From: Rhodocyclales bacterium
GTDB taxonomy: Bacteria; Pseudomonadota; Gammaproteobacteria; Burkholderiales; Rhodocyclaceae
Reading direction: 5' to 3'
Length of the DNA stretch: 64,000 nt
NCBI GenBank assembly: GCA_016235745.1
Contig: JACRJA010000012.1
Location: forward strand, 1-64,000
Part shown: one piece after another, positions 37,885 through 59,240 of the stretch
Position numbering within the stretch: the stretch's first letter is position 1
Layout of the letters: every line of letters begins with the position of its first letter
Made by a program: the position numbers and the translations under genes
The notes under the pieces: generated by a model
The model's input: the letters and a program-made list of their open reading frames with translations, nothing else
Databases searched by the model: none
Told to the model about the DNA's origin: nothing

Positions 37885-38229
37885 TCAATGACTGATCATC
37901 CACGGCCGTTGCGTCGGAAACGCCTTCGTTCCGTCGGCTGCCCTGACCGTCGACTTCGACGGTTGCCCGCTGCAACATCCGCACCCAGGCCCGTGCTTGT
38001 GGCGCGTCGCGTACTCCGCGCTGGTCATTGGTGCATGGGCCGCGCGTTCGTTGGTGGCGTGGGCGTTACGGGTGGCGCTGTCCATCGTGGCGAGGGAGGG
38101 AGCGCTGAGCATGACGCGGTAGGCCTGCGCGCCGCAGTGCGGGCAGGCGCAGGGTTCATTACGGGCGCTCATGGGGCGCAGGACGGAGAAGTCGCCGCAG
38201 CTTTCGCAGAAGTATTCATAGGTTGGCAT
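37885..38229 (-). CDS. fmdB: FmdB-family zinc-ribbon protein
   Basis: MPTYEYFCESCGDFSVLRPMSARNEPCACPHCG; downstream of formamidase. Confidence 0.88.
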   Translation of the reverse strand: MPTYEYFCESCGDFSVLRPMSARNEPCACPHCGAQAYRVMLSAPSLATMDSATRNAHATNERAAHAPMTSAEYATRHKHGPGCGCCSGQPSKSTVRAADGTKAFPTQRPWMISH

Positions 38230-38299
38230 GATGGGTTCCCGGTGGCAGTGCCCGCCGCGCGGAGGGTGGCGGCGGGTGGTGGCTACGGTTGATGCGGGC

Positions 38300-39532
38300 T
38301 CAGCTCTTGTCGTAGGCGATGGGCAGGTCGACGCCGCCACTGATGAACTTGGTGGGCCCTTCGGCAGTGGGATTGATGTCGAAGTCGAAGATCTCAGTGG
38401 GCAGCCACAGCGTGGCGCAGGCGTTGGGGATGTCGACGACGCCGCTGATGTGGCCCTGCACCGGCGCGGTGCCGAGAATGGAGTAGGCCTGAGCGCCAGA
38501 GTAGCCGAACTTCTTCAGGTACTCGATGGCGTTGAGACAGGCCTGGCGGTAGGCGACGTGTACGTCCAGGTAGTGCTGCTTACCCCGTTCGTCGACCGAG
38601 ATGCCTTCGAAGATCACGTAGTCCTTGAACTGCGGAGTGATCGGGCTGGGCTTGAAGATCGGGTTCTTGATCGCGTACTTGGCCATGCCGCCCTTGATCA
38701 GACTGACCTTCATGTGCACCCAGCCGGCCATCTCGATGGCGCCGCAGAAGGTGATTTCACCGTCGCCCTGCGAGAAGTGCAGGTCGCCCACCGAGAGGCC
38801 GGCGCCTTTCACATACACCGGGAAGAACACGCGCGAGCCGCGCGAGAGGTCCTTGATGTCGCAGTTGCCGCCGTGTTCGCGCGGCGGCACGGTGCGGGCG
38901 CCTTCCATCGCAGCCTTGTCGCGCGCTTCACCCTTCATCTTGCCCATGTGCGCGGTGGGGGCGAAGGGCGGGTTGGCCAGTGGCGGCACGCGGTTGGGCT
39001 GGGTGGCGATGAAGTTGATCTCGCGCTCGTTCCACATGTCGAGCATCTTCTGGTCGGGCAAACAGCCGATGAGGCCGGGGTGGATGAGGCCGGGGAAGCG
39101 CACGCCGGGGATGTGGCGGCTCTTCGTGAACATGCCCTCGAAATCCCAAATGGACTTCTGCGCGTGCGGGAAGTGCTCGGTGAGAAAGCCTCCGCCGTTG
39201 TTCTTGGAAAAGAAGCCGTTGAAGCCCCACAGGCTGTCGTCTTTGGCGCCGATGTCGAGCAGGTCGACCACCAGCAAGTCGCCGGGCTCGGCGCCTTCGA
39301 CGCCTACGGGGCCGGACAGGAAGTGCACGGTAGTCAGATCCACGTCGCGCACGTCAGAAGCATCGTCGTCGTTCTTGATGGCGCCGCCAGTCCAGTCGTA
39401 GGTCTCGAGAATGAAGTCATCGCCCGGCTTCACCCAGCACGCCATCGGGATGTCCGGGTGCCAGCGGTTGTGCACCATCTCGTTCTCGTACGGGGACTGC
39501 TTCAAGTCGACCTTGATCAGTGTTTCAGGCAT
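38300..39532 (-). CDS. fmdA: Formamidase (acetamidase/formamidase family)
   Basis: MPETLIKVDLKQSPYENEMVHNRWHPDIPMACWVKPGDDFILETYDWTGGAIKNDDDASDVRDVDLTTVHFLSGPVGVEGAEPGDLLVVDLLDIG. Confidence 0.95.
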   Translation of the reverse strand: MPETLIKVDLKQSPYENEMVHNRWHPDIPMACWVKPGDDFILETYDWTGGAIKNDDDASDVRDVDLTTVHFLSGPVGVEGAEPGDLLVVDLLDIGAKDDSLWGFNGFFSKNNGGGFLTEHFPHAQKSIWDFEGMFTKSRHIPGVRFPGLIHPGLIGCLPDQKMLDMWNEREINFIATQPNRVPPLANPPFAPTAHMGKMKGEARDKAAMEGARTVPPREHGGNCDIKDLSRGSRVFFPVYVKGAGLSVGDLHFSQGDGEITFCGAIEMAGWVHMKVSLIKGGMAKYAIKNPIFKPSPITPQFKDYVIFEGISVDERGKQHYLDVHVAYRQACLNAIEYLKKFGYSGAQAYSILGTAPVQGHISGVVDIPNACATLWLPTEIFDFDINPTAEGPTKFISGGVDLPIAYDKS

Positions 39533-39553: not shown

Positions 39554-40243
39554 TTACACGGAGAGGAACTGCTTGATGTGGGCTTCGTCAGTGTCGGCGC
39601 GTGCGCTTTCATAGACGAGGCGTCCGCCTTCGATGACGAACAGGCGGTCGGCCACGTCCATCGCGAAGGAAAGGACCTGTTCGGACACGACGATGGTGAT
39701 CTTGCGGATCTTGCGGATCTCGTTGAGCGCCTTCGCGATGTCCTTGATGATCGAGGGCTGAATGCCCTCGGTGGGTTCGTCGAGCAGCAGCACCTTGGGG
39801 TCGGTGACGAGCGCGCGGGCAATCGCGAGCTGCTGCTGCTGGCCGCCAGAGAGGTTGCCTCCCTTGCGCCGGCGCATGTCCCACAGCACCGGGAATAGCG
39901 CGTAGATCTCGTCGGGCACCTTCTTGACCTTGGCGTTCTCCATGCCGGTGAGGATGTTTTCCTCGACGGTGAGGGTGGAGAAAATCATCCGCCCCTGCGG
40001 CACGTAGGCGATGCCCTTGGCCACGCGGCGGAAGCTCTCGTCCTTGCCGACTTCCTGGCCGTCGACCTCGATGCTGCCGGACTTGAGCGGCAGCAGGCCT
40101 ATCAGTGACTTGAACAGGGTAGTCTTGCCCATGCCGTTGCGGCCCATGATGGCGACGGCTTCATTGCGTTCGGCGGTGAACGAGATGCCGTGCAGCGCCT
40201 CGCTCTGGCCGTAGTTCACGACGAGGTTGGATACCTTGAGCAT
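39554..40243 (-). CDS. urtE: Urea/amide ABC transporter ATP-binding protein
   Basis: MGRNGMGKTTLFKSLIGLL, LSGGQQQQLAIARAL; LivF-like. Confidence 0.92.
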   Translation of the reverse strand: MLKVSNLVVNYGQSEALHGISFTAERNEAVAIMGRNGMGKTTLFKSLIGLLPLKSGSIEVDGQEVGKDESFRRVAKGIAYVPQGRMIFSTLTVEENILTGMENAKVKKVPDEIYALFPVLWDMRRRKGGNLSGGQQQQLAIARALVTDPKVLLLDEPTEGIQPSIIKDIAKALNEIRKIRKITIVVSEQVLSFAMDVADRLFVIEGGRLVYESARADTDEAHIKQFLSV

Positions 40244-40261
40244 GGTGTTCTCCGGCGAGCC

Positions 40262-41005
40262 TCAGTGGCCCAGATAGACGTCGATGACCCGGGGATCGGA
40301 CCGGATCTTGTCCATCGAGCCTTCGGCGAGAATTTTTCCTTGGTGCATCACCGTGACCTTGTGGGCGATGCGGGCGACGAAATCCATGTCGTGCTCAATG
40401 ACGATCACCGATCGGTTCTGGCAGATGCGATTGAGCAGGTCGGCGGTGAGCTCGCGCTCGCGCGCGCTCATGCCGGCGATGGGCTCGTCGAGCATCAGCA
40501 GCTCGGGGTCCTGCATCAGCAGCATGCCAATCTCTAGCCACTGCTTCTGGCCGTGGGAGAGCAGTCCAGCTTCGAGGTCGAGGCAGTCGGCGAGGCCGAT
40601 CATGCCGGCGACCTCGTCGACTTTGGCCTGCACAGCGTCGTCGCACTTGAAGCAGAGCGCGCCGAACACGCCGCGGCCGCGCGGATAGGACACTTCCAGG
40701 TTCTTGAACACGGTTAGGTTTTCGTAGATGGACGGGGTCTGGAACTTCCGCCCGATGCCGGCGCGCACGATCATGTGCTCGGGCAGCCGGGTCATTTCCT
40801 GGTTCTTGAACTTGATGCTGCCGGCCGAGGCTTTGGTCTTGCCGCAGATGAGGTCGAGCAGGGTGGTCTTGCCGGCGCCATTGGGTCCGATGATCACGCG
40901 CAGCTCGCCGCGATCGACGTAGAGGTTGAGGTTGTCGATGGCCTTGAAGCCGTCGAAGGAGACCGTCAGGTCTTCCACGGCGAGGACGAAGTCGGTGTTG
41001 CTCAT
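40262..41005 (-). CDS. urtD: Urea/amide ABC transporter ATP-binding protein
   Basis: GPNGAGKTTLLDLICGKTKASAGSI, LSHGQKQWLEIGMLL; LivG-like. Confidence 0.92.
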   Translation of the reverse strand: MSNTDFVLAVEDLTVSFDGFKAIDNLNLYVDRGELRVIIGPNGAGKTTLLDLICGKTKASAGSIKFKNQEMTRLPEHMIVRAGIGRKFQTPSIYENLTVFKNLEVSYPRGRGVFGALCFKCDDAVQAKVDEVAGMIGLADCLDLEAGLLSHGQKQWLEIGMLLMQDPELLMLDEPIAGMSARERELTADLLNRICQNRSVIVIEHDMDFVARIAHKVTVMHQGKILAEGSMDKIRSDPRVIDVYLGH

Positions 41006-41026
41006 GATGTGGGCCTCCCTGTTCCG

Positions 41027-42253
41027 TCAGACCGACTGGCTGCTGATCTTGGTGCCGAGGCTGGGGCTTGTGGCTGAGGCGGCCGTGGTGGCGGTGGCGA
41101 CAGTGGCCGGCTTGTGCGCGGGCTCGGTCGTCGGTGCCGGCGGCTCGCCGCCCGTGCCAGCTGGCGCGGGCGCCTGCTTGCGACGCGCCAGCCAGGGCTT
41201 GACGTGGCTCTCATAGAGGCCGGCTAGACCATTGGGGAAGGCCATCACCACGCCGATGAAGAGCCCCGCCATCAGGAACAGCCACAGGTCGGGGAAAGTC
41301 TCGGAGAAGTAGGTCTTGCCAAAATTGACCAGCAGCGCGCCATACACCGCGCCCACCAGGCTCATGCGCCCGCCCACCGCAGCGAAGATCACCATCTCGA
41401 TCGACGGTACGATGCCGACGAAGGACGGCGACATGAACCCGACCTGCAGCGTAAACATCGCCCCGCCGATGGCCGACAGCGCGGCCGCCAGGCAGAAGGC
41501 GAAGACCTTGAACATCGACACGTCGTAGCCAGAGAAGCGCACGCGGTCTTCTTTGTCGCGCATGGCCAGCAGCAGGGTGCCGAGCTTGCTGAGCTGGATC
41601 CAGCGGCACAGCAGGATGGCCCCGAGCAGCAGGGCGGCGGTGAGGAAGTACAGCAGAGTCTTGGCTTCGTCGGTGCGGATGTCCCAGCCCATCAGGGTCT
41701 TGAGGTCGGTTATGCCGTTGACGCCGCCGGTGTAGCCCTGCTGGCCGATGATGAGGACGGTCAGGATCAGCGCCACCGCCTGGGTGATGATGGCGAAGTA
41801 CACCCCGCCCACGCGGCGCTTGAACATCGCGTAGCTCACGATGAAGGCCAGCAGCACCGGCACCGCAACCACCGCGAACAGCGTGAAGGCGAAGGAGTTG
41901 AACGGCTCCCACCACCACGGCAGTGCGGTGAGCTGGTTCCAGTCCATGAAGTCGGGGATGCCTGGCGTGGATTGGATCTTGGTGCTCACGGGGTCGGACG
42001 CCTCGAGCTTTAGGAACATGGCCATGGCGTAGCCGCCGAGGCCGAAGAACACGCCCTGGCCTAGGCTGAGCACTCCGCCGTAGCCCCACAGCATGACGAG
42101 GCCGATGGCGACGAATCCGTAGGTGAGATACTTGCCCACCAGATTCAGTCGGAAGCTGTCCATCGCCAGCGGGAACACCACCAGCAGCAGGACGGCGAGG
42201 ATCGCGACGCTGGCTAGGCCGCTGCGTCCCAGCCAGGATTTGATTGCATCCAT
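41027..42253 (-). CDS. urtC: Urea/amide ABC transporter permease
   Basis: LivM-like polytopic protein with Pro/Ala-rich C-terminal tail. Confidence 0.9.
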   Translation of the reverse strand: MDAIKSWLGRSGLASVAILAVLLLVVFPLAMDSFRLNLVGKYLTYGFVAIGLVMLWGYGGVLSLGQGVFFGLGGYAMAMFLKLEASDPVSTKIQSTPGIPDFMDWNQLTALPWWWEPFNSFAFTLFAVVAVPVLLAFIVSYAMFKRRVGGVYFAIITQAVALILTVLIIGQQGYTGGVNGITDLKTLMGWDIRTDEAKTLLYFLTAALLLGAILLCRWIQLSKLGTLLLAMRDKEDRVRFSGYDVSMFKVFAFCLAAALSAIGGAMFTLQVGFMSPSFVGIVPSIEMVIFAAVGGRMSLVGAVYGALLVNFGKTYFSETFPDLWLFLMAGLFIGVVMAFPNGLAGLYESHVKPWLARRKQAPAPAGTGGEPPAPTTEPAHKPATVATATTAASATSPSLGTKISSQSV

Positions 42254-42317
42254 GATCAATCTCCGGTCTTTGATTCGAGGTTCGGTCAGGTTCGGGCCGG
42301 TTGTAAATCCATCGGAC

Positions 42318-43232
42318 TCAGCGGCGCACCTTGGAGGCGAACAGACCTTGCGGGCGCAGCATCAGGATGGTCACGATCAGCAGCAGGGTGAGCACCTTGG
42401 CCATCGAGCCGGACAGGAAGAACTCGGAGATCGATTGCATTTGTGCGATGCCGAAGGCCGAGACCACCGTGCCCCACAGGCTGGCTGCGCCGCCGAAGGT
42501 CACCACCAGGAAGGCATCGACGATGTAGAGCGAGCCGCTGGTCGGGCCGGTCGAGCCGATGGTGGTGAAGGCCGCCCCGGCTACGCCGGCGAGGCCGCAG
42601 CCGATGGCAAAGGTGACGCGGTCGGTGCGCGTGGTGTTGATGCCGATGGCGTTGGCCATGCTGCGGTTGGCGACCGTGGCACGCACCCGTAGTCCCCAAC
42701 GCGACTTGTACAGCGCGAGCAGAACGCCGCCGGTAACGACGATGGTCAGCCCGAGCACGAACATACCGTTGATCGGGATGTCGAGGCCTTCGGCCGGCGA
42801 CCACGAGCCCATTAGCCAGTCGGGCAGGATGGGGCTGACTTCCTTCGGCCCGATGATGCTGCGGAATGCCTGCTGCATGGCCAGCGATAGGCCCCAGGTG
42901 GCGAGCAGGGTGTCGAGCGGGCGCTTGTACAGGTGCCGGATCAATGCCCATTCCGTCAGCCAGCCGAAGGCAAAGGCGACGAGGAAGGAGCACACGATGG
43001 CAAACGGGAAGTAGGCCTGGATTAGGCCAGGGGCGTAGCTCTCGGTGAGGCTGGAGAGCAGAAAGATAGTGTAGGCGCCAATGGTCATGAATTCGCCATG
43101 CGCCATGTTGATGACGCCCATCTGACCGAAGATGATCGCCAGGCCGAGCCCCATCAGCAGCAGCACCGCGAACAGGCTAAGGCCGGCAAAACCCTGCATC
43201 AGGGCGATGTTGTAGATTTCGTCGAACGACAT
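42318..43232 (-). CDS. urtB: Urea/amide ABC transporter permease
   Basis: LivH-like; GLGLAIIFGQMGVINMAHGEFMTIGAY. Confidence 0.92.
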   Translation of the reverse strand: MSFDEIYNIALMQGFAGLSLFAVLLLMGLGLAIIFGQMGVINMAHGEFMTIGAYTIFLLSSLTESYAPGLIQAYFPFAIVCSFLVAFAFGWLTEWALIRHLYKRPLDTLLATWGLSLAMQQAFRSIIGPKEVSPILPDWLMGSWSPAEGLDIPINGMFVLGLTIVVTGGVLLALYKSRWGLRVRATVANRSMANAIGINTTRTDRVTFAIGCGLAGVAGAAFTTIGSTGPTSGSLYIVDAFLVVTFGGAASLWGTVVSAFGIAQMQSISEFFLSGSMAKVLTLLLIVTILMLRPQGLFASKVRR

Positions 43233-43311: not shown

Positions 43312-44577
43312 TTACTGGTAGCCCTCGGGGAAGGGGTTCGGTTCGATCAGCTCTGGGGATTCGGCCACAACCTTGAACTGGCCGTCGGCCAGGCCCATGC
43401 CGATGCGGGTTTTGCTCCACAGGTGATGGTTTTCGTGAATCTTCACGTAACCCTCTGGCGCAGTAGTGAGCTCGATGCCGGGGGAGGCCGCGACGACCTT
43501 GTCTACATCGAAGCTACCCGCCTTTTCGACCGCGGCTTTCCACAGCCATGGCCCCAGGTAGGCCGCCTGGGTGACGTCGCCGATGACCGCTTTGGGACCA
43601 TACTTGGCCTTGAAGGCGGCGACGAACTTCTTGTTGTTCTCGTTTTCGAGCGACTGGAAGTATTTCATCGAGGAATAGAAGCCCTCGAAGTTTTCGCCGC
43701 CGATGCCCAGCATCTCGTCCTCGGTCACCGACAGGGTGAGCAGGAACTGCTTGGCGCCGGTGATGCCGGCAGCCTTCAACTGCTTGTAGAAGGCCACGTT
43801 CGAGCCGCCGACCACGGCCGCCAAAATGCAGTCGGGCTTGGCGATTTTGATCTTGTTGATCAGCGAGTTGAAGTTGGTGTTACCGAGCGGGTAGTACTCT
43901 TCGCCAACGACCTTTCCGCCTTGGAAATTCTCGATGTGTTTGCGCGCGATCTTCATCGAGGTACGCGGCCAGATGTAGTCCGAGCCCACCAGGAAGATCT
44001 TTTGCGCGCCCTTCTCCTTCTTCGCCCAGTCGAGGCCGTAGAGGATCTGCTGGGTGGCTTCCTGGCCGGTGTAGATGACGTTCTTCGATTGCTCCAGGCC
44101 CTCGTAAAAGGTGGGGTAATAGAGCAGGCCGTTTTCCTTCTCGAAGATCGGCAGCACCGCCTTGCGCGAGGCGGAGGTCCAGCAGCCGAACACGGTCGCC
44201 ACTCTGTCGTTGACCAGCAGCTTGCGTGATTTCTCGGCGAAGGTCGGCCAGTCGGAGGCGCCGTCTTCCTTGATGACGCGGATCTTACGGCCGAGGATGC
44301 CGCCCATCTCGTTGATCTGGTCGATGGCGAGCTGCTCAGCCTGGATAGAGCCGGTTTCAGAGATGGCCATGGTGCCGGTGGCCGAGTGCAGCTGGCCGAC
44401 CACGACCTCGGTGTCGGTCACAGCGAGGCCAGTGGTGTTGACCTGGGCGGTGGGCAGGGCGGCAGCATGGCCCATGCGGGACATCGCCAGCGCGAGCGGG
44501 AGGGCGGCGGCGCCGAGCATGAACGTGCGACGCGAGGAGGAAGACAGGTGCTCGGGAGGCAAGTGCTTAGCGGACAT
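43312..44577 (-). CDS. urtA: Urea/amide ABC transporter substrate-binding protein (Tat-type signal)
   Basis: SRRTFMLGAAALPLALA; VVVGQLHSATGTMAISETGSIQAEQLAIDQINEMGGI; TSASRKAVLPIFEKENGLLYYPTFYEG. Confidence 0.95.
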   Translation of the reverse strand: MSAKHLPPEHLSSSSRRTFMLGAAALPLALAMSRMGHAAALPTAQVNTTGLAVTDTEVVVGQLHSATGTMAISETGSIQAEQLAIDQINEMGGILGRKIRVIKEDGASDWPTFAEKSRKLLVNDRVATVFGCWTSASRKAVLPIFEKENGLLYYPTFYEGLEQSKNVIYTGQEATQQILYGLDWAKKEKGAQKIFLVGSDYIWPRTSMKIARKHIENFQGGKVVGEEYYPLGNTNFNSLINKIKIAKPDCILAAVVGGSNVAFYKQLKAAGITGAKQFLLTLSVTEDEMLGIGGENFEGFYSSMKYFQSLENENNKKFVAAFKAKYGPKAVIGDVTQAAYLGPWLWKAAVEKAGSFDVDKVVAASPGIELTTAPEGYVKIHENHHLWSKTRIGMGLADGQFKVVAESPELIEPNPFPEGYQ

Positions 44578-44697: not shown

Positions 44698-44715
44698 ATA
44701 CGTCAAACGACGTAT
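44698..44715. promoter_or_regulatory. 18-bp inverted-repeat element ATACGTCAAACGACGTAT upstream of urtA
   Basis: ATACGT/ACGTAT arms; 17/18 match to the reverse complement of 59223-59240 upstream of amiE. Confidence 0.65.
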
Positions 44716-44955: not shown

Positions 44956-47900
44956 ATGACCACCCCTGCCAGCCAGCGCATCATCCGTCGGGAGTACAAT
45001 AGTTGGGTCGCTGACGAGACGCTGGAGGACTACGCCTTACGTTACGCCCCTCGTGGCTTCCGCAAGTGGTCATTCTCGCGCATCGCCCACACCGCGCTGG
45101 GCGCGGTATCCTTCCTGGCGATGGAAGCCATCGGCGGCACCATTGCACTGCATTGGGGCTTCACCAATGCGGTATGGGCGATCAGCCTGGTGGCGCTGGT
45201 GATCTTCCTCACCGGCCTGCCAATCAGCTACTACGCTGCGCGTGAGTCGGTGGACATGGACTTACTGACCCGCGGCGCCGGCTTTGGTTACATTGGCTCG
45301 ACCATCACCTCGCTGATCTACGCCTCCTTCACCTTCATCTTCTTCGCCATTGAGGCGGCGATCATGGCGCTGGCACTGGAGCTGTGGTTCGGGCTGCCGC
45401 TGCTGTGGGGCTACCTGCTGAGTTCGCTGGCGGTGATCCCGCTGGTGGCGCACGGCATCACCTGGATCAGCCGGCTGCAGGCGTGGACGCAGCCAGTGTT
45501 CGTCGTGCTGCTGCTGACGCCCTTCCTCGTCGTGCTGCTGCGCGAACCTGAGCTGTATGCCGCCTTCACCGAGTTCGGTGGACGCCACGGCAACGACGTC
45601 GACTGGCTGGCGATAGGCACTGGCTGCACCGTGGCCTTTGCACTGATCGCACAGATTGGCGAACAGGTGGACTTCCTGCGCTTCCTGCCGCCGGCCGACC
45701 GGCGCAACCGTGGACGCTGGTGGATCTCGGTGGTGGCGGCGGGGCCGGGTTGGATCATCCCTGGCGCGCTCAAGATGGTCGGCGGGGCCTTCCTTGTCTT
45801 CCTTGCACTGCAGGCGATGGTGCCGCCGGATAAGGCATTGCAGCCCACGCACATGTACCTGACGGGCTTCCAGCATGTGGTCGACGATCCGCGTGCGGCG
45901 ATCGCGCTCGCCTGCATTTTCGTCATCATCTGCCAGGTCAAGATCAACGTGACCAACGCCTATGCGGGGTCGTTGGCGTGGTCCAACTTTTTCTCGCGCC
46001 TCACGCACAGCCACCCGGGGCGGGTGGTGTGGCTGATTTTCAACGTGCTGATCGCGCTGATGCTGATGCTGCTCGGCGTGTTCGAGGCGCTGGAGCACGT
46101 ACTGAGCGTGTATGCCAACGTGGCGGTGGCTTGGATCGGTGCGGTGGTGGCCGACCTGGTGGTGAACAAGCCGCTTGGCCTGTCGCCGCGCCACATCGAG
46201 TTCAAACGCGCCTACCTCTACGATGTGAATCCGGTGGGAGTAGGTGCGATGCTGGCGGGCTCGGTGCTGGGCATCGTCGCCCTCGGCGGCTACCTGGGGC
46301 CGGTGGCGCAGGCCTTTGCACCCTTCATCTCGCTGCTGAGCGCCTTCGCGCTGGCACCGCTGATCGCCTGGAGCACGCGAGGCCGCTTTTACCTTGCCCG
46401 GCCGCGCGAGACGCAATGGCGCGCGGCCGAGCCGCTGCGCTGCGTGGTGTGCGAGAACCACTTCGAAGCCGAAGACATGGCCCATTGTCCGGTCTACGGC
46501 GGCGCCATATGCTCGCTGTGCTGCACGCTGGAGGCACGCTGCCGCGACCGCTGCAAGCCCGACGCCAGCCTGCTCTCGCGCTTCGCCCCGTTGCTGGCGG
46601 GCTGGATGCCGTCGTCGATATCGGCGCGCATGGCCCGTTGCGTGGGCCAGTTCGTGATGGTGTTTTTCGTCAGCAGCCTGGTGATTGCCTCAGTCGTGGG
46701 CCTGGTGTACCAGCAGGAACTGCTGGCGGAGCAGGCGGGGACGACCGACTTGGGACTGGCCTTCCTGCGCATCTTCGCGGTGCTCGTGCTGCTGGCGGCG
46801 GTGGGGGTGTGGTGGCTGGTGCTGGCCAACGAGAGCCGGCGGGGGGCGCAGGAGGAGTCCGATCTCCAGAACCAGTTGCTACTGCGCGAGATTGAGGCCC
46901 ACCGCGACACCGATGCCAAGCTGCAGCGGGCTAAGGAGGCCGCCGAGGCCGCCAACGTGGCCAAGAGCCGCTACGTGCGCGGCATCAGTCACGAGCTGCG
47001 CACGCCCCTCAACACCATCCTTGGCTACTCGCAGATCATGCTGCGTGACCCCGACCTGCCGCGGCACCGGCGCGAGGCGATTTCCACCATCCAGCGCAGC
47101 GGAGAACATCTGCTGGCGCTGATCGACGGCCTGCTCGATATCGCCAGCATCGAGGCCGGGCGCCTGCAGTTCAACCGCCAGGAGTTTCGCTTCGGCGAGT
47201 TCCTCGCTCACGTCGAAAAGATGATCGCGCTCGAGGCCGAGCGGAAGGGGCTGGTGTTTCGCACCGAGTTCGCCGGGCGCATGCCCGAAGTGGTGCAGGG
47301 CGACACCAGCCGCCTGCGCCAGATCCTGATCAATCTGCTCGCCAACGCGGTGCGCTACACCGAGCGCGGCGAGGTGGTGCTGAAGATCACCTACCAGAGC
47401 GAGATCGCGGTGTTCGAGATCCGCGACACCGGCTGCGGCATTCCCGAGGCGGACCTGGAGCGCATCTTCGAGCCCTTCGAGCGTGGCACAGGCAACCAGC
47501 CGCCGAGCGCGCCGGGCACCGGCCTCGGGCTCACCATCACCCGCCTACTGATTGATCTCGCTGGCGGCCAGCTCACGGTCAGCAGCACCCCGGGGCGCGG
47601 CAGCGTGTTCCGCGTCAAGCTGCATCTGCCGCGGGTGACACATCCGCGGGTGGCGACGCGGCCCGAGCGCGAGATCCGCGGCTACTTTGGCCCGCGGCGT
47701 AAGCTGCTGGTCGTCGACGACCAGCCGGCGCAGAGCCACCTGATCGCCGACATGCTGCGTCCGCGCGGTTTCCTGGTCGAGGAGTGCGAGCGACCGGACG
47801 ATGTGCTGCGCCAGGTGGAGTCCTTCGCGCCGGACATCGTGTTCCTCGACGTGTCGATGCCGGTGACCGATGGCTGGACGCTGAGCCGCCAGCTGCGCGA

Positions 47901-48417
47901 TGTGGGTTACAGCGGGCCGATCGTCATGGTCTCGGCCAACGCCTACGAGAATCTGCCGGACCGGCGTACGGCCGCGGGTTGCGACGACTTTATCGTCAAG
48001 CCGGTGCTGGAGACCGAACTGTTCGCCCGCCTCAGCACCTGGCTGGGACTGGCGTGGATCTATTCCGAGAGTGGCGATACGCCGCGGGTCGATGCGCCGG
48101 CCGCACCTGCAGGTGAGCTTTCGGCGCTGCTGCCGGCTCCGCCCGCCGACGACTCCGCGTCCGTTCGTCCTGCGACACTTGCGCCGGCGGTGCTGTCTGC
48201 CCTGTCCGGACACGTCCGCGCCGAGCTGCGCGAGTTTGCCGACCTCGGCCACCTGCAAGGCCTGGTGCGTCGCCTCGACGAACTCGAAGCCTTGCACCCT
48301 GAACTCCGCGCCCCGCTGGAAACCCTGCGCGCGCTGACCCTGGAGCTGCGCTTTGACACCCTCATCCAAGCCCTAGATGGAGTCGCCGATGACTGCCCCG
48401 ACGTTGTCGCTCCGTGA
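44956..48417 (+). CDS. Transporter-like hybrid sensor kinase: NCS1-type permease - Cys cluster - HisKA/HATPase - receiver
   Basis: NCS1-like N-terminal ~480 aa; CVVCENHFEAEDMAHCPVYGGAICSLCCTLEARCRDRC; H-box ISHELRTPLNTILGYSQIM; N-box LINLLANAVRYTE; REC LVVDDQPAQSHLIADMLRPRGF. Confidence 0.9.
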   Translation: MTTPASQRIIRREYNSWVADETLEDYALRYAPRGFRKWSFSRIAHTALGAVSFLAMEAIGGTIALHWGFTNAVWAISLVALVIFLTGLPISYYAARESVDMDLLTRGAGFGYIGSTITSLIYASFTFIFFAIEAAIMALALELWFGLPLLWGYLLSSLAVIPLVAHGITWISRLQAWTQPVFVVLLLTPFLVVLLREPELYAAFTEFGGRHGNDVDWLAIGTGCTVAFALIAQIGEQVDFLRFLPPADRRNRGRWWISVVAAGPGWIIPGALKMVGGAFLVFLALQAMVPPDKALQPTHMYLTGFQHVVDDPRAAIALACIFVIICQVKINVTNAYAGSLAWSNFFSRLTHSHPGRVVWLIFNVLIALMLMLLGVFEALEHVLSVYANVAVAWIGAVVADLVVNKPLGLSPRHIEFKRAYLYDVNPVGVGAMLAGSVLGIVALGGYLGPVAQAFAPFISLLSAFALAPLIAWSTRGRFYLARPRETQWRAAEPLRCVVCENHFEAEDMAHCPVYGGAICSLCCTLEARCRDRCKPDASLLSRFAPLLAGWMPSSISARMARCVGQFVMVFFVSSLVIASVVGLVYQQELLAEQAGTTDLGLAFLRIFAVLVLLAAVGVWWLVLANESRRGAQEESDLQNQLLLREIEAHRDTDAKLQRAKEAAEAANVAKSRYVRGISHELRTPLNTILGYSQIMLRDPDLPRHRREAISTIQRSGEHLLALIDGLLDIASIEAGRLQFNRQEFRFGEFLAHVEKMIALEAERKGLVFRTEFAGRMPEVVQGDTSRLRQILINLLANAVRYTERGEVVLKITYQSEIAVFEIRDTGCGIPEADLERIFEPFERGTGNQPPSAPGTGLGLTITRLLIDLAGGQLTVSSTPGRGSVFRVKLHLPRVTHPRVATRPEREIRGYFGPRRKLLVVDDQPAQSHLIADMLRPRGFLVEECERPDDVLRQVESFAPDIVFLDVSMPVTDGWTLSRQLRDVGYSGPIVMVSANAYENLPDRRTAAGCDDFIVKPVLETELFARLSTWLGLAWIYSESGDTPRVDAPAAPAGELSALLPAPPADDSASVRPATLAPAVLSALSGHVRAELREFADLGHLQGLVRRLDELEALHPELRAPLETLRALTLELRFDTLIQALDGVADDCPDVVAP

Positions 48418-49042
48418 GCGCGAAGTCATCCTGCTGATCGACGACGCACCGGACACGGTGCGCATGATCGCCGAGGCGCTCGACGAGACCGGCTACACTG
48501 TGCTGGTCGCCACCGACGGTGCCACCGCGCTGAAGCGGCTAGAGCGCATCACCCCCGATGCCGTGCTGCTCGACGCCTGCATGCCGGGCATGGACGGCTT
48601 CGAGACCTGTCGCCGGCTCAAGCAGACGCCGGGGATGCGTACCGTGCCGGTGATCTTTATGACGGGGTTGGCGGAGACCGAGCGCCTGGTCGAAGGCTTG
48701 TCCGCCGGGGGCATCGATTACCTGGTCAAGCCGGTCGTGCCCGACGAGCTGGTGGCGCGCTTGCAGGCGCACCTGCGCGTGGCGCGCGAGATGAATGCGG
48801 TGATGCGTGCGCGCGGAGAGGACGCCGAGCCTGACGCTGCGCTGCTGCCCAATCCGCTGACGCAGCGCGAGATGGACGTGCTGGAGTGGGTTGCGCGCGG
48901 CAAGACCAACCGCGACGTGGCAGACATTCTCGGCATGAGCCCACGCACGGTGAACAAGCACCTCGAGCACATCTACGAGAAGCTTGGGGTGGAGACACGC
49001 ACGGCAGCCGTAGCCCGGCTCGCGCGGCTTGTGCGCATCTGA
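48389..49042 (+). CDS. Response regulator with LuxR-type HTH output
   Basis: REC LIDDAPDTVRMIAEALDETGY...LLDACMPGMDG; HTH LTQREMDVLEWVARGKTNRDVADILGMSPRTVNKHLEHIYEKLGVETRTAA; overlaps the kinase 3' end. Confidence 0.93.
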   Translation: MTAPTLSLREREVILLIDDAPDTVRMIAEALDETGYTVLVATDGATALKRLERITPDAVLLDACMPGMDGFETCRRLKQTPGMRTVPVIFMTGLAETERLVEGLSAGGIDYLVKPVVPDELVARLQAHLRVAREMNAVMRARGEDAEPDAALLPNPLTQREMDVLEWVARGKTNRDVADILGMSPRTVNKHLEHIYEKLGVETRTAAVARLARLVRI

Positions 49043-49257: not shown

Positions 49258-49307
49258 TGCACTATCTGTGTGCCCCAGAGGACCATTTGGTGCACCGCAA
49301 TGGTGCG
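49258..49307 (+). promoter_or_regulatory. Two NtrC-type binding sites upstream of ureD
   Basis: GCAC-TATCTGT-GTGC (49259-49273) and GCAC-CGCAATG-GTGC (49292-49306), 33 bp centre to centre. Confidence 0.7.
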
Positions 49308-49369
49308 CACGCCAGAGCGCCGTGGCGCCGCGGGCCGCAGTTGCCCAGCAGCCGCACCTTTTCATGGGA

Positions 49370-49385
49370 TGGCACGTTATTTGCT
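49370..49385 (+). promoter_or_regulatory. Sigma-54 (-24/-12) promoter of the ure operon
   Basis: TGGCACGTTATTTGCT, full match to TGGCACGN4TTGCW. Confidence 0.8.
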
Positions 49386-49396
49386 CAGATTGGTGC

Positions 49397-50266
49397 ATGA
49401 ATGCTCCACTCTCTTTCCCCGCCGAGTACGTCATCGCGCCGCTGCGGCAGCAGGGCTGGCATGCGGCCTTGTCGCTGACCTATGCCCGCCGTGGGGATCG
49501 GAGCGTGCTTATCCGTCGCAGCCATGTCGGGCCGCTGGTCGTGCAGCGACCGCTGTATCCGGAGGACGAGGCGGTTTGCCACACCATCGTGGTTCATCCG
49601 CCGGCAGGCATTGCTGGCGGGGACAGTCTGCAGGTAACGGTGCGGGTGGAGGATGGTGCACATGCCTTGCTGACCACGCCGGGGGCGGGCAAGTGGTACC
49701 GCAGTACCGGTGCGCCTGGGATACTGGTGCAGCGCATCGCCGTGGCCGCGGGTGGCGTATGCGAGTGGCTGCCGCAGGAGAGCATCGTCCAGGACGGGGC
49801 GCTGGGTGCGCTGGTGACCGAGGTGAGCCTACAGGGCGACGCCTGTTTTGTCGGCAGCGAGATGTTGTGCTTTGGACGCACCGCCTCTGGCGAGCGTTTC
49901 GGCCGCGGCGAGATGGCGATGCGCACCCGCATCGAGCGTGATGGTCGCCCGCTGTGGCTGGAGCGCGGCGTACTGCAGGGCGGCGATGCCCTGCTGGATG
50001 CGGCCGTGGGCCTGCAGGGGCAGCCGGTCTGCGGCAGTTTCGTCGTCGCCTCGCCGCGCTGCGATGCCGACCTGCTGGCAGCGTGGCGCGACATTGTGCC
50101 CGCGGTCGGCGAAGGCGGCGTGACCCTGTTGCCAGGCCTGCTGGTGGCGCGCTGGCTGGGGCCGGCCTGCGAGCCCGGGCGCGAATGGTTCGCCCGCCTG
50201 TGGGCGAGCGTGCGGCCGGCGGTCGCCGGGCGGGCGGCGCAGACGCCGCGCATCTGGAATACCTAA
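49397..50266 (+). CDS. ureD: Urease accessory protein UreD
   Basis: TYARRGDRSVLIRRSHVGPLVVQRPLYPE...HPPAGIAGGDSLQVTV...TTPGAGKWYRS. Confidence 0.95.
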   Translation: MNAPLSFPAEYVIAPLRQQGWHAALSLTYARRGDRSVLIRRSHVGPLVVQRPLYPEDEAVCHTIVVHPPAGIAGGDSLQVTVRVEDGAHALLTTPGAGKWYRSTGAPGILVQRIAVAAGGVCEWLPQESIVQDGALGALVTEVSLQGDACFVGSEMLCFGRTASGERFGRGEMAMRTRIERDGRPLWLERGVLQGGDALLDAAVGLQGQPVCGSFVVASPRCDADLLAAWRDIVPAVGEGGVTLLPGLLVARWLGPACEPGREWFARLWASVRPAVAGRAAQTPRIWNT

Positions 50267-50305
50267 TCAACCCTTTGGCGGCGCGCTCGCGCTGAGGAGG
50301 ACACG

Positions 50306-50608
50306 ATGGAACTGAGCCCACGCGAGAAGGACAAGCTGCTGATCTTTACCGCCGGTCTGTTGGCCGAGCGTCGCCGCGCGCGCGGCCTGCGCCTCAACTA
50401 TCCCGAGGCGGTCGCCTTCATCACCTGCGCGATCCTCGAAGGCGCGCGCGACGGCCGCACGGTGGCCGAGCTGATGAGCTACGGTGCCACGCTGCTAACG
50501 CGGGACGAGGTGATGGATGGGGTTGCCGAGATGATCCCCGAAATCCAGGTTGAGGCGACCTTTCCGGATGGCACCAAGCTGGTCACAGTGCATAACCCGA
50601 TCGTGTGA
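50306..50608 (+). CDS. ureA: Urease subunit gamma
   Basis: [57 protein letters not shown]. Confidence 0.97.
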
Positions 50609-50630
50609 CTTCAGCCGTGGGAGCAGGAAG

Positions 50631-50939
50631 ATGAGCGAAGCCGAACTCGAGACCGCGCGCCTGCTGGCGCGCTTCAAGCTGATGGTGCGCCGCAGTTTGG
50701 ATCGCAGCGTTAACCTGGCCGCGATGCAGGCCGACCCGGTGCAGGCGGCGGCGGTGCTGGACGAGATCGAGGAACTCGCCGATGACGAGGAACTGCTGAC
50801 GATGGTGGTGCGCCTGCGTGAACGCCTGCTAGCGTCGGCGCCGGAAGCCCCAGGGGAACCGCCCCCCGAAGCCGAGGTGCCGTCCGCTGTCGCGCGTCCG
50901 GCGCTACGCGACTACCGTTTCGGCGCCCGCGGCAGTTGA
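50631..50939 (+). CDS. Small protein (102 aa) encoded between ureA and ureB, function unknown
   Basis: ATG preceded by [60 protein letters not shown]...; same strand, tightly packed. Confidence 0.75.
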
Positions 50940-50967
50940 ACACCCGATGTCTACGCAGGAGAAAAGG

Positions 50968-51272
50968 ATGATTCCCGGAGAACTCATGCCGTGCGACGGC
51001 GACATTGAACTCAATGCTGGCCGCGCCACGCTGACGCTGGTGGTGAGCAACACCGGTGACCGTCCGATCCAGGTCGGTTCGCACTACCACTTTGCCGAGA
51101 CCAACATGGCGCTGGCCTTCGATCGCGCGGCGGCACGAGGCTTCCGGCTGAACATCGCTGCCGGTACCGCGGTGCGCTTTGAGCCGGGACAGTCGCGCAC
51201 CGTCGAGCTGGTGGCGCTGGACGGGGAGCGCAAAGTCTATGGCTTCAACGGTCTCGTGATGGGAGCGCTGGA

Positions 51273-51276
<4 letters not shown>
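50968..51276 (+). CDS. ureB: Urease subunit beta
   Basis: [46 protein letters not shown]. Confidence 0.97.
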
Positions 51277-52979
<1,703 letters not shown>

Positions 52980-52997
52980 CTGAATCCTGGACGCATC

Positions 52998-53546
52998 ATG
53001 CCGATCAACAATGAAATGCTTGAAGACCTAGTTATGCCCGACGCCGCGTCGGCGGTGCTGCTGATCGAGGTCCTCTACGACGGCGACGCGCCGGCGACCG
53101 AAGTACTCGAGCTGGATTTCAGCAGGCGCACAAAGAGCCGCCTGCGCGCACGGCTCGCCTCCGGCACCGATGTTGGCCTGTTCCTGCCGCGCGGCACCAT
53201 CCTGCGCGGCGGCCAGAAGCTGCAATCGCGCGACGGTCGCATCGTCGAGGTGCGCTCGACGCCTGAAGACCTGCTCGAGGTGCGCTGCGCGTCCTCGCTG
53301 GAGCTGGCGCGCGCTGCCTACCATCTCGGCAACCGCCACGTCGCCGTGCAGGTCGGGCGCGACGCCAGCGGCGACTGGCTGCGCATCCAGGCAGATCATG
53401 TGCTTGAGGGCATGCTGCTCGGGCTGGGGGCCTCGGTCAGCAGTCTGCGCGCGCCCTTCGAGCCGGAGGCCGGCGCCTATGCGCATGGCCACCAGCATCC
53501 GGGCGATGGCAGCGGCGCGCGCATCCATCTGATGGCGGGCCATTGA
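52998..53546 (+). CDS. ureE: Urease accessory protein UreE
   Basis: Central [49 protein letters not shown]. Confidence 0.93.
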
Positions 53547-53548
53547 GC

Positions 53549-54268
53549 ATGCCGATCAGCGCCACCCCGTTCGCAGCCGGTACCGGGCTACTGCCACTGG
53601 TGCGCCTGCTGCAACTGGCCAGCCCGGCGCTGCCGGTGGGTGCCTATACCTATTCGCAGGGCTTGGAGTGGGCGGTGGAGAGCGGTGCTGTGCGCACGGA
53701 GGTGGACGCTGCGGTCTGGATCGGCGACTTGCTGCAGTGGAACCTGGCGCGCTTCGAGGCGCCTCTGCTGGCCTGCCAGCTGGCAGCCTGGGCGGTGGGC
53801 AATGACGCCGAGGTGGCGCGCCTGAACGGCGATTTCCTCGCCAGCCGCGAGACCGCCGAACTGCGCGCCGAGACGGTTCAGATGGGCTGGTCCCTGATGA
53901 AGCTGCTGACCCAACTGGACGCCTTCGCCGCCTTGCCCGGCTGGCGCGTGCGCCTGCTGGCGATCGACACGCCGTGCTTTCCCTGCGCCTGGTCGGCGGC
54001 GGCTGCCGCCTGGCAGGTACCGGTTGCTCAGGCGCTGGCGGCCTACCTGTGGGCCTGGGCCGAGAACCAGGTGATGGCGGCGGTGAAGGCGGTGCCGCTG
54101 GGCCAGGGCGCAGGCCAGCGCCTGCTGGCCGCACTCGGTCAGCGCATCCCGCAGCTGGTCGAGGTTGCGCGCAGCCTACCCGAGGCACAGTGGAGCAACT
54201 ACACCCCGGGGCTGGCGATCGCCAGTAGCCGGCACGAAACCCAATACACGAGGCTGTTCAGATCATGA
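53549..54268 (+). CDS. ureF: Urease accessory protein UreF
   Basis: [25 protein letters not shown]. Confidence 0.95.
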
Positions 54269-54903
54269 GCATGAATATGAGCATTTCCGAGCACCGCGGC
54301 CCGCTGCGCGTCGGCATCGGCGGGCCGGTTGGTTCCGGCAAGACCGCGCTGACGCTGGCACTGTGCTTGGCGCTGCGTGACCGGTACAACATCGCCGTCA
54401 TCACCAACGACATCTACACTGCGGAGGACGCCCAGTTCCTAGTGCGCAACGAGGCGCTCGCGCCCGAGCGCATCATTGGCGTCGAGACCGGCGGCTGCCC
54501 TCACACCGCGATCCGCGAGGACGCCTCGATCAACCTCGAGGCGGTCGACCGGCTCAACATGCGCTTTCCCGGACTGGATATCATCTTCATCGAATCCGGC
54601 GGCGACAACCTGGCGGCCACCTTCTCGCCCGAGCTGTCGGACCTGACGATCTACGTCATCGACGTGTCGGCTGGCGACAAGATCCCACGCAAAGGCGGCC
54701 CCGGCATCACCCGTAGCGACCTGCTGGTGATCAACAAGATCGACCTCGCGCCGCTGGTGGGCGCGTCGCTCGAGGTTATGGACCGCGATGCGCGAAGGAT
54801 GCGTGGCACACGCCCCTTCATCTTCTCCAACCAGAAGACGGGGCAGGGGCTCGCCGATATCATCGACTTCATCGAGCGTCAGGGCATGCTGGTTGCCCCC
54901 TGA
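54265..54903 (+). CDS. ureG: Urease accessory GTPase UreG
   Basis: [44 protein letters not shown]. Confidence 0.98.
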
Positions 54904-54941
54904 GTCGTCGCACGCAACATTCATCTGCAGGAGAACATATC

Positions 54942-55547
54942 ATGAAGACCCGCTCCGTGTTCGCCGCTGTCGCCCTCGCCGCCGCATCGGGCGCCGCGCT
55001 CGCCCACCCCGGCCATGAGTCAGCCAGCTTCTTCACCGGCTTCACCCACCCGCTGGGCGGCCTTGACCATCTGCTGGCGATGCTGGCCGTCGGCCTGTAT
55101 GCCGCGCGCCAGCCGGGCGCAACGCGCTGGATGCTGCCCGTCGGCTTCGTGCTGGCGATGCTCGCCGGGGCTGGGCTGGGTGCGCTCGGCGTCGCGCTGC
55201 CGGCGGTGGAGGCGGGCATCGCGGCATCGGTGCTGGTGTTCGGTCTGTTGATCGCGTTTGCCGCGAGCCTGCCGCTGACTGTCAGCCTGCCGCTGATCGC
55301 TGCCTTGGCGCTGTTCCACGGTCATGCCCACCATGCCGAGATGGGTGGCGCCAGCCTCGTGACCTACGCGGCGGGTTTTGCTCTGGCGACGGGATTGCTG
55401 CATGGCGCAGGCTACGTGATTGCACGCTGGATCCCGCAGACGTGCGCCGGCAATGTGATCAAGCGCGTCGCTGGTCTGATGGTGGGGGGCGTAGGCAGCG
55501 CTGTTGCGCTGCGAGTGAAGCGATGGACGCAGCTTAAACTCGAATGA
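54942..55547 (+). CDS. ureJ: HupE/UreJ-family membrane protein (nickel-related)
   Basis: AHPGHESASFFTGFTHPLGGLDHLLAMLAVGLYAAR; ALFHGHAHHAEM. Confidence 0.9.
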   Translation: MKTRSVFAAVALAAASGAALAHPGHESASFFTGFTHPLGGLDHLLAMLAVGLYAARQPGATRWMLPVGFVLAMLAGAGLGALGVALPAVEAGIAASVLVFGLLIAFAASLPLTVSLPLIAALALFHGHAHHAEMGGASLVTYAAGFALATGLLHGAGYVIARWIPQTCAGNVIKRVAGLMVGGVGSAVALRVKRWTQLKLE

Positions 55548-55578: not shown

Positions 55579-57306
55579 TCAGCCCCCCACCAGTTCGGCG
55601 TAGCTGCGCGCCAGCGTGACGGCGAGTCGGGCCGGATCGTCGACAATCCGGTAGCCGCCGTGTCCAAAAATCCGGCGCACATCCGCCTCGGACGCGCGGT
55701 CCAGACTGAGGCAGAAGCAGCGCACGCCCTTGCGTCGTGCCTCGACCACCGCACGCGCGGCGTCCTCGACTAGATGGCGGGCGTCGAATACGTCGATGTC
55801 CGACGGTGAGCCGTCCGACAGCACCAGCAGCGTGCGTTGCGCGCTCATCTCCTGCGCCAGCCGCGCTGTTGCGTGGCGCATGGCCGCGCCCAGCCGGGTG
55901 GATAGCCCTGGCCGAACAGCGCCCAGCACCATCATCGGGTCGGTCGGCACGGCCTGGCCGAAGTCGAGCAGGCGCAGGTAGTTCACCGCCTGCCGACCGT
56001 CCGAATTGAAACCAGCGACCTCAAGCCTGTCCTCGCGGTTACGCAGCGCATCCATCAGTAGCGCGGCAGCTTCGCATTCCAAATCCAGTACGTTGCGCCC
56101 ACAGGACTGCATGTCGGCAGTGGAAGCGGACAGGTCGAGCAACAGCAGCAGGCTGGTGCGCGGCACGGAACGGCCGTTACGACGGAACAGTCGCGGATCG
56201 GGTACCAGTCCCAGCCGACGGTCGATAAAGACCTCGGTGGCGGCGTCCAGATCCAGCTCGTCGCCTTCCCACTGGCGGCGGATGCGCTGGCTGCGGTCGA
56301 GACGGCAGCTGCGCGCCAGCCGCAGCGGCAGGCGCGCAGGCGGCGTCGGTGTGCTGGCCGAAGTGGGCGGCACGGCGCGCTCGATCACGGTGCACCACTT
56401 GTCGCGGGCGCGGTCGAGGCGGTAGTGCCACTCCGGGTAGTCGTGGCGGGCGAGCTCAGGCAGGGACATCGATTCCGGCGCTTCTTCCGGCGCCTGCGGC
56501 GGTACGGACCGGCGTTCGCCCTGCGGTGGCGGGTGGCACAGCGTAGTTTTGGCCTGCTCGGCGTCAGCACCGTGCGCCCACAGGTGACTGTTATCGTCGT
56601 GCCAGGGCAGAGGAGGGGCGTAGGTCTGCAGGTTCATGCGCACGCGCAACTGACCGAGATCGTTGGCCAGAACCGACACCAATTCACGGAAGGCCTCGGC
56701 CTCATCCAGCCGTTCGGCCTGCGCCTCGAACAGCGCGCGGCCTTTACACACCCAGGCATTGTCGTCTTCGGTCTGTGGGTCGAGCAGCACGCGCTGCAGG
56801 CGCGCAATCATCGCCTCGAAGCCCACTTGAGGCAGTTCCGTCTGGCAGCGCAGCAGGCGGCGGAACAGACGTCCGATGCCGGGGTAGCGGCGGATCATCA
56901 GGCGGTCGACACGCACGTCCTCGATGGCACCGGCCAGCGCCAGGCTCATAGGCTTGCGCTTTCCCGCTTCTTGGCGGCGCGGGGAATGGCGTAGATGGCC
57001 AATAGCGTGCAGCGTGGCGGCGAGGTGGAATTCGTCGGCAGGCAGTGTCCATGCGGGCGGCGCCTCAGGCAGCAGCAGGGTGGCGCCGTGCAGTACCGGG
57101 CGCAGCGCAGGGCCGTCCTGCGGCGGGCGTTCCAGCGCCTGCACATTACCGTCGTCGACGCCGAAGGCGTGCATCACATGGCCGAGTGCGGCCAGACGGG
57201 GGGCGAAGTCTGTTGGCGCCCGGCATCGGCCACCACACCATGCTGCGGGTAACTCAGAAGGCCGATTCAAGGATGGCTCCCAGCGCACGTTGCATGTCTG
57301 GGTCAT
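55579..57306 (-). CDS. VWA-domain protein (NorD/CbbO-like)
   Basis: MIDAS-like LLLLLDLSAS, LVLSDGSPSDID; adjacent to a NorQ/CbbQ-type AAA+. Confidence 0.88.
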   Translation of the reverse strand: MTQTCNVRWEPSLNRPSELPAAWCGGRCRAPTDFAPRLAALGHVMHAFGVDDGNVQALERPPQDGPALRPVLHGATLLLPEAPPAWTLPADEFHLAATLHAIGHLRHSPRRQEAGKRKPMSLALAGAIEDVRVDRLMIRRYPGIGRLFRRLLRCQTELPQVGFEAMIARLQRVLLDPQTEDDNAWVCKGRALFEAQAERLDEAEAFRELVSVLANDLGQLRVRMNLQTYAPPLPWHDDNSHLWAHGADAEQAKTTLCHPPPQGERRSVPPQAPEEAPESMSLPELARHDYPEWHYRLDRARDKWCTVIERAVPPTSASTPTPPARLPLRLARSCRLDRSQRIRRQWEGDELDLDAATEVFIDRRLGLVPDPRLFRRNGRSVPRTSLLLLLDLSASTADMQSCGRNVLDLECEAAALLMDALRNREDRLEVAGFNSDGRQAVNYLRLLDFGQAVPTDPMMVLGAVRPGLSTRLGAAMRHATARLAQEMSAQRTLLVLSDGSPSDIDVFDARHLVEDAARAVVEARRKGVRCFCLSLDRASEADVRRIFGHGGYRIVDDPARLAVTLARSYAELVGG

Positions 57307-58051: not shown

Positions 58052-58112
58052 AGCGTTCGTCCGAATGGGCACGCCCGACATCCCGCGGGACATCGGGCGG
58101 CCGAAGGGGCAA

Positions 58113-59150
58113 TCAGCGATGGGCCGATGGCTGGTTGGGGATGCCCTCGATCGGGCATTCCGGCGTGCCCACGGTGGAACGGGTGATTGCCTCCACCTTC
58201 TTGCGCGTGCCTTCCGGATCATTGATCCACTCGCCGTAGAAGCTGTAGGGGCAGGCGGCAACGCCGGTGGGTTCTTCGCCGGAGTTGATCTTGCCGGTGT
58301 AGCCACGGTGCAGCAGCTTGAAGAGGTGGTTCTCCGACTGCGCGTTCTTGCGGAAATCGCGGATCAGGCTGGTAGAGAGTTCGGCGTACTGGATGCCCAT
58401 CTCTTCCTCACCGCATTCGCCCAGCGTACGGCCGTCGAAGCCAATGATGGCCGAGTGGCCGAAGTAGGAATACACACCGTCGAATCCGGTGGCGTTGGCT
58501 ACGGCCACGTAGCAGTTGTTCATCCACGCCATCGCCTTGGCCACCATCACCTGCTGGTCCTTGGCCGGGTACATGTAGCCTTGGCAGCGCACGATCAACT
58601 CGGCGCCCTTCATCGCGCAGTCACGCCAGATCTCGGGGTAGTTGCCGTCATCGCAGATGATGAGACTGATCTTCATGCCCTTAGGGCCATCAGACACATA
58701 GGTGCAGTCGCCCGGATACCAGCCTTCGATTGGCACCCAAGGCATGATCTTGCGGTATTTCTGCACAATCTCGCCACGGTCGTTCATCAGGATCAGCGTG
58801 TTATAGGGCGCCTTGTTAGGGTGGTCTTCATGACGCTCGCCGGTCAGCGAGAACACACCCCACACCTTGGCCTTGCGGCAGGCGGCGGCGAAGATCTCGG
58901 TCTCCTCGCCCGGTACCATGGCCGCGGTGTCGTACATTTCTTGGGGGTCGTACATGATCCCGTGGGTCGAATACTCGGGAAAGATCACCAGATCCATTCC
59001 CGGCAGGCCCTTCTTCATGCCTACCACCATTTCAGCAATCTTGCGCGCATTGTCCAGCACCTCGGCCTTGGTGTGCAGGCGCGGCATCTTGTAGTTGACC
59101 ACCGCAACGCCCACGCAATCGGCGCTGCTCGAAATGTCTCCGTGTCTCAT
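58113..59150 (-). CDS. amiE: Aliphatic amidase
   Basis: [61 protein letters not shown]; nitrilase Glu/Lys/Cys ([26 protein letters not shown]). Confidence 0.96.
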
Positions 59151-59222: not shown

Positions 59223-59240
59223 ATACGTTGTTTGACGTAT
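59223..59240. promoter_or_regulatory. 18-bp inverted-repeat element ATACGTTGTTTGACGTAT upstream of amiE
   Basis: Reverse complement ATACGTCAAACAACGTAT, 17/18 match to 44698-44715. Confidence 0.65.

Follow-up and report, generated by a model that had tools for sequence, protein, structure and literature searches.

A hybrid histidine kinase with a transporter-like sensor domain as candidate regulator of amide nitrogen genes in a Rhodocyclales bacterium

What does a histidine kinase joined to a transporter-like membrane domain sense, and which genes does it govern, when it is encoded between a urea/amide-type uptake operon and a urease operon? This question is raised by a 64,000-nucleotide stretch of a Rhodocyclales bacterium genome (assembly GCA_016235745.1, contig JACRJA010000012.1, positions 1 to 64,000; hereafter the window), in which a 1153-residue hybrid kinase and a LuxR-type response regulator are encoded side by side. 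Judging from comparative sequence analysis, kinase and regulator very probably switch on uptake and breakdown genes for formamide, acetamide and similar small nitrogen compounds; more specifically, we consider it probable that they form a two-component system for short-chain amide (possibly urea) nitrogen that acts through operators of 7-2-7 geometry. The domain layout, the kinase-regulator pairing, the conservation of the neighbourhood and an operator with a tie to the kinase were shown computationally, and the predicted regulatory link of the system to the urt and amiE genes is strongly supported by sequence evidence.

The kinase, its sensor region and its partner

The kinase open reading frame (ATG start) was confirmed as a hybrid histidine kinase gene, and the frame, the Pfam matches and the family alignment agreed on the fusion of transporter-like domain, Cys-rich linker, HisKA-HATPase core and receiver that the original prediction had described (Table 1). 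The REC-LuxR gene said to overlap its 3' end was likewise found: its 221-residue frame overlaps the kinase frame by 41 bp, and Pfam placed Response_reg at residues 18-129 (3.9e-28) and GerE/LuxR at residues 160-212 (4.1e-21). With the phosphoacceptors found by reading the sequence (kinase H679 and D965, regulator D66), every feature tested for a hybrid kinase with a LuxR/NarL partner was present (HisKA, HATPase, receiver, phosphoacceptors and an adjacent REC-helix-turn-helix gene), and the two genes were adjacent, mostly overlapping, in 121 pairs. When the first 500 residues were used as query, 55 of 299 Burkholderiales genomes gave a match, the source genome included, and 49 of these matches were strong (E below 1e-100), the remainder being weak matches to other membrane proteins. 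Because 49 of the 299 genomes matched strongly, the fusion is conserved across a family and is no artefact of sequencing. Proteins of ~1040-1170 residues drawn from weak tblastn matches were rejected, as on reading they proved to be RND-type efflux proteins with chance similarity.

The N-terminal region had been described as a full NCS1-like transporter. No Pfam transporter model matched the window protein even at E <= 1, PF02133 (Transp_cyt_pur) gave no match for it or for any of 32 aligned members, and no PDB chain matched the membrane domain by sequence. By structure, however, residues 1-640 as modelled by AlphaFold with 32 sequences as input (mean pLDDT 78.5) matched Mhp1 best in a Foldseek search of the PDB (E 1e-9) and CodB next (TM-score 0.79 by CodB's length), followed by more distant APC-type folds, with the SLC5 member NIS in sixth place (4.5e-6). 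The sensor domain was also linked by hhalign (98.3% probability) to standalone NCS1-like permeases of the same order, which are ~443-477 residues long and share 22-24% identity with it; one of these scored above the PF02133 cut-off and two more below it. As the structure matched Mhp1 and CodB best and the profiles provided a link through the standalone permeases, we conclude that the membrane domain has a divergent NCS1 fold outside the Pfam family. The original description as a full transporter therefore has to be qualified, although its NCS1-like fold was borne out. The domain shares with Mhp1 and CodB the fold and this remote profile link, and differs from them in escaping PF02133, in being fused to a kinase and in being followed by a cysteine domain. 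Its invariant polar residues in the family alignment are E236, Q237, D239, K273, K329, N331, T333 and N334. Standalone NCS1-like permeases akin to the sensor domain were seen at L231:6890-8218 and L233:5862-7235.

The cysteine domain follows immediately on the final transporter-domain helix and has the cluster originally described, with eight cysteines that the alignments showed to be invariant in the family (C496, C499, C511, C519, C522, C523, C529 and C533). A search with this segment alone matched 52 of 399 Pseudomonadota genomes, and all 40 newly fetched loci also encode an NCS1-like domain; the two domains therefore go together. No accepted family was found for the cysteine domain: the match to Prok-RING_1 was weak (best 0.0084, in 8 of 87 members), Foldseek returned mostly RING, PHD and FYVE types with none significant (best E 0.27), and the likeness to zinc cross-brace domains is weak. 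PDB matches to C2H2 zinc fingers were rejected, their coverage being limited to the CxxC knuckle. We infer a structural metal site, most likely a zinc module. The proposal that the cluster serves as a nickel checkpoint for urease was not supported, since the cysteines are equally invariant where no urease is nearby and nothing points to nickel.

Gene neighbourhood and predicted operator

The kinase gene lies between urtA and ureD as originally placed, the divergent urtA being confirmed by NCBIfam and UreD at 49268-50266. To describe the neighbourhood, 170 loci gathered in three ways were compared by gene clustering; the gene counts are lower bounds because the gene caller was crude and contigs were often short. 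The regulator was found in 124 loci, a urtA-like gene in 123, urtC in 114, fmdA in 97, fmdB in 54, an amiE/amiF-type amidase in 53 and ureC in 27. Urt-type genes were present in 145 loci, amidase genes in 99 and urease genes in 34, and 154 loci adjoined Urt-type transporter, formamidase/amidase or urease genes. Ties of homologues to unrelated pathways, which would count against the amide/urea idea, were examined in this set: genes of the urt, amidase and urease kinds were all absent from 16 loci, of which several lie on short contigs. On the sensor-domain tree, one clade of 43 sequences carries most urease-linked loci and the remainder consists mostly of amidase-linked ones, with the window sensor and that of Thauera linaloolentis in the amidase-linked part. 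Because the window sensor groups with amidase-linked loci, the tree argues for amides as the likely ligand class here, a pattern that shared descent alone could also yield.

The palindrome TACGTCA-NN-TGACGTA was first seen by reading urtA-kinase intergenic regions and has the NarL-type layout of inverted heptamers with a 2-bp spacer. In the source genome (2.16 Mb), sites with up to two mismatches occur only at the two window positions of Table 1, which lie 14.5 kb apart. Such sites were found in 77 of 111 urtA-kinase intergenic regions, where Markov-shuffled sequence gave 0.15 per 111; these figures are not independent counts, the loci being related and chosen by presence of the kinase. A scan over 3.19 Mb of such loci gave 120 sites versus 2 for the reversed pattern. 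Most stand before urtA or the kinase gene, others before fmdA and before an ExtI-like gene family. More weight attaches to the result for the source genome given above and to the following ones. Across the 299 Burkholderiales genomes, nine perfect sites were located in eight genomes, each within ~6 kb of a kinase gene, while the reversed control pattern gave three sites in three genomes. No site preceded urtA in 13 urt loci of kinase-less genomes (an amidase was in view in 12 of them, and one UrtA was 81% identical) or in three urt-amidase clusters that kinase-positive genomes carry as a second cluster; in three plasmid loci unused in motif derivation (L270, L271 and L272), the site was in place. 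The conserved neighbourhood and the shared, near-exclusive operator support the proposed control of the urt and amiE promoters. In the window no operator with up to three mismatches precedes ureD, so direct control of the urease is not indicated. The amide/urea idea was largely supported, with short amides favoured over urease control.

The preferred sites of NarL are heptamers in inverted orientation, 2 bp apart, an engineered 7-2-7 site being TACCCCTAAAGGGGTA (PMC4549865). The predicted operator is like NarL-type sites in its inverted heptamers starting with TAC, two-base spacer, 16-bp length and outer bases (PMC4549865), whereas the heptamer is TACGTCA here and TACCCCT in the engineered narG site. 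We infer that the operator is bound by the LuxR-type regulator encoded beside the kinase. Among its relatives, residue 193 of the recognition helix covaried with position 6 of the half-site, which was a purine in 36 of 36 half-sites of D193 regulators and a pyrimidine in 78 of 84 half-sites of N193 regulators. The regulator tree shows at least two origins of D193, one of them inside the betaproteobacterial genus g35, the other members of which keep N193 and the TACGTCA site. For urease-linked regulators with K193, the region upstream of the kinase showed no recognisable operator. At a further locus (L184), a K193 regulator is accompanied by the site TACGCCATGTGGCGTA before urtA, which may represent a different specificity class.

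Table 1. Features of the kinase locus in the window
Feature	Position	Strand	Evidence or remark
Hybrid histidine kinase, 1153 aa (transporter-like domain, Cys domain, two predicted TM (transmembrane) helices, HisKA, HATPase, REC, ~120-aa tail)	44956..48417	+	Open reading frame, Pfam, family alignment
Transporter-like sensor domain, divergent NCS1 fold, residues 1-485	44956..46410	+	AlphaFold model, Foldseek, hhalign; no Pfam match
Cysteine domain, residues 496-534, CxxC-x11-CP-x6-CSLCC-x5-CxDxCK, eight invariant Cys	46441..46557	+	Alignments, Cys-only search
Two predicted long helices leading into kinase, residues 564-591 and 597-639	46645..46872	+	AlphaFold secondary structure
HisKA, H679, residues 669-735	46960..47160	+	Pfam PF00512, 1.3e-17
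HATPase_c, residues 782-892	47299..47631	+	Pfam PF02518, 3.7e-28
Receiver of hybrid kinase, D965, residues 918-1026	47707..48033	+	Pfam PF00072, 1e-21
Response regulator, REC and LuxR/NarL-type HTH (helix-turn-helix); D66; recognition-helix N193	48377..49042	+	Pfam; adjacency in kinase-regulator pairs
Predicted operator TACGTCAAACGACGTA, between urtA and kinase	44699..44714		Conserved at same place in relatives; genome has just one further site with <=2 mismatches
Predicted operator TACGTTGTTTGACGTA, 74 bp upstream of amiE	59224..59239		Other genome site with <=2 mismatches
urtA, substrate-binding protein of Urt ABC transporter	43312..44577	-	TIGR03407, 520 bits (cut-off 493)
urtB, urtC, urtD, urtE	39554..43232	-	NCBIfam equivalogs above cut-off
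fmdA, formamidase	38300..39532	-	NF045496, 776 bits (cut-off 500); PF03069
fmdB-like zinc-ribbon protein	37885..38340	-	PF09723; NF053663
amiE, aliphatic amidase	58113..59150	-	NF009802, 723 bits (cut-off 427); PF00795
ureD, ureA, ureB, ureC, ureE, ureF, ureG, hupE	49268..55547	+	UreD and HupE by Pfam; others by reading/homology

Proposed mechanism, alternatives and known systems

In the mechanism that we propose, the NCS1-fold membrane domain would bind a small amide or sense its passage and then change shape, and the change would run through the cysteine domain (most likely with structural zinc) and two more membrane helices to the HisKA/HATPase core. Phosphate would pass from H679 to D66 of the regulator, D965 of the attached receiver probably serving as intermediate or sink, and the phosphorylated regulator dimer would bind TACGTCA-NN-TGACGTA and activate urtABCDE-fmdA(-fmdB), its own operon and amiE; activation rather than repression is assumed. 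In relatives, the targets may also include fmdA alone and the porin-like gene. A bolder version would make these proteins a second class of transporter-kinase transceptors, with an NCS1 fold, where an amide permease, either active or locked, signals substrate to the kinase through an obligate eight-cysteine metal or redox gate; we consider it unlikely.

The same regulon could instead have urea as its main cue and urease as its principal output, as the urease genes next door in the window and in several relatives, the urease-linked clade of sensors, and loci with urease and no amidase would suggest. Since the window sensor falls outside that clade, amidase genes outnumber urease genes among the loci and ureD has no operator before it, this reading is improbable. 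A different objection is that the NCS1 domain is a membrane anchor or interaction partner to which the cue is relayed by another protein, e.g. UrtA or the Urt permease; the kinase almost always adjoins urt genes, yet it is also encoded without them, and the many invariant polar residues of the membrane domain point to a functional site, so that we regard this arrangement as rather unlikely. As to the cysteine domain, gating of the kinase by a redox or iron-sulfur/metal checkpoint would suit eight invariant cysteines placed directly behind the transporter domain, but the weak, non-significant likeness to zinc RING/PHD/FYVE-type folds suggests a structural role and no tie to nickel or urease was seen; such gating is unlikely.

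Some kinase loci, mainly urease-linked ones, have no recognisable operator, as could be the case if the palindrome belonged to another regulator that happens to govern the same operons. That explanation appears very improbable, given that perfect sites in the 299 genomes occur only near kinase genes, that kinase-less clusters have no site before urtA, that the 7-2-7 geometry suits a NarL-type regulator and that the half-site tracks the recognition-helix residue. The loci without an operator count against control of amide genes by the kinase system as well, and so do two further points: control loci hold the same enzymes without this kinase, and sensing could lie elsewhere, e.g. in UrtA or in intracellular nitrogen status. 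The covariation of residue 193 with position 6, which we take as supporting evidence for a match of regulator and predicted operator, reflects a small number of independent events, and purine sites also accompany some N193 regulators of Alphaproteobacteria, these exceptions belonging to genomes outside the class.

Fusions of a transporter to a kinase are already known from the SLC5-STAC histidine kinases CbrA, CrbS and RpuS, of which CbrA has been termed a transceptor (PMC13022988, PMC9100948, PMC5715377); the version with an NCS1 fold is new, and the collection of papers searched contained no account of this kinase or of any NCS1-kinase fusion. The parallel with CbrA that had been drawn for the window kinase holds in architecture, an N-terminal membrane transporter domain and HisKA/HATPase being present in one chain, with a different transporter fold: NCS1 and not SLC5 was the best match, no STAC match was found in Pfam (whether the Pfam set holds a STAC model was left unchecked), the linker consists of the cysteine domain and two helices, and the neighbours are amide genes. 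The window kinase thus works like CbrA and yet is not a member of the CbrA family, because tests for the SLC5 and STAC features found neither. In this way transporter-kinase sensors are extended from the SLC5 to the NCS1 fold. Among amide systems, the Methylophilus fmdCABDEF cluster for short-chain amides and urea is induced by formamide and urea and has formamidase, FmdB and high-affinity amide/urea uptake in common with the window (PMC10781810), but only a putative positive regulator is named for it in a review (PMC10781810), in contrast to the two-component system and predicted operator found here. AmiC/AmiR governs the same kind of genes, amidase operons (PMC13209695), through a binding protein and an antiterminator instead of a kinase and a DNA-binding regulator. 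A Pseudomonas fmdA-urt cluster has been reported without amiC/amiR, its control left open (PMC13209695), and a two-component system of this kind would fill that gap. The locus thereby offers a candidate regulator, operator and small regulon for a widespread nitrogen-scavenging gene set with unclear control.

Spread, variants and further observations

The family is widespread in Proteobacteria and the system is found on hundreds of plasmids, with 524 plasmid records in PLSDB (342 from Klebsiella; 306 predicted conjugative overall), where 'ATP-binding protein', 'hybrid sensor histidine kinase' and 'ArcB' are the only names given to the kinase. Two Klebsiella copies that were read have the order amiF-urtEDCBA|kinase-regulator, one with an additional aliphatic amidase, and the Burkholderia vietnamiensis G4 copy is flanked by transposase genes on both sides. 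At two loci (L229 and L230), the NCS1-Cys module is carried by a non-hybrid kinase without receiver, near an OmpR-type regulator and fmdA/fmdB, while two other relatives have an additional Hpt and one of these also PAS. Because output modules vary among relatives, the NCS1-Cys part behaves as a sensor module; the transmitter can therefore change and the link to amide genes can stay.

In a congener (L243), guaA is joined directly to the equivalent of window position ~59674, and the block ~37607-59674, which holds all of the amide/urea genes, is missing; the block was thus gained here or lost in the congener as a unit. No integrase gene was recognised at the block edge, and no sensor match was found in four congeners. 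Contamination as the reason for kinase-less congeners was rejected, guaA on the same contig being 96-98% identical to that of the congeners.

A gene family weakly akin to the porin ExtI has its own operator upstream (L183:20092-21210, L052:14677-15882 and L147:20617-21726) and is a candidate amide porin. In urt-amiE clusters without a kinase at the locus (L251, L254, L255, L259, L261 and L263-L265), a second UrtA-related gene diverges from urtA and is possibly an AmiC-like, alternative regulator. In the window, genes for a VWA-domain protein and a MoxR/GvpN-like AAA+ ATPase (55579-58054) adjoin amiE, and VWA/AAA+-like pairs recur beside amiE in L036, L042, L118 and L126, for which a role in maturation is possible.

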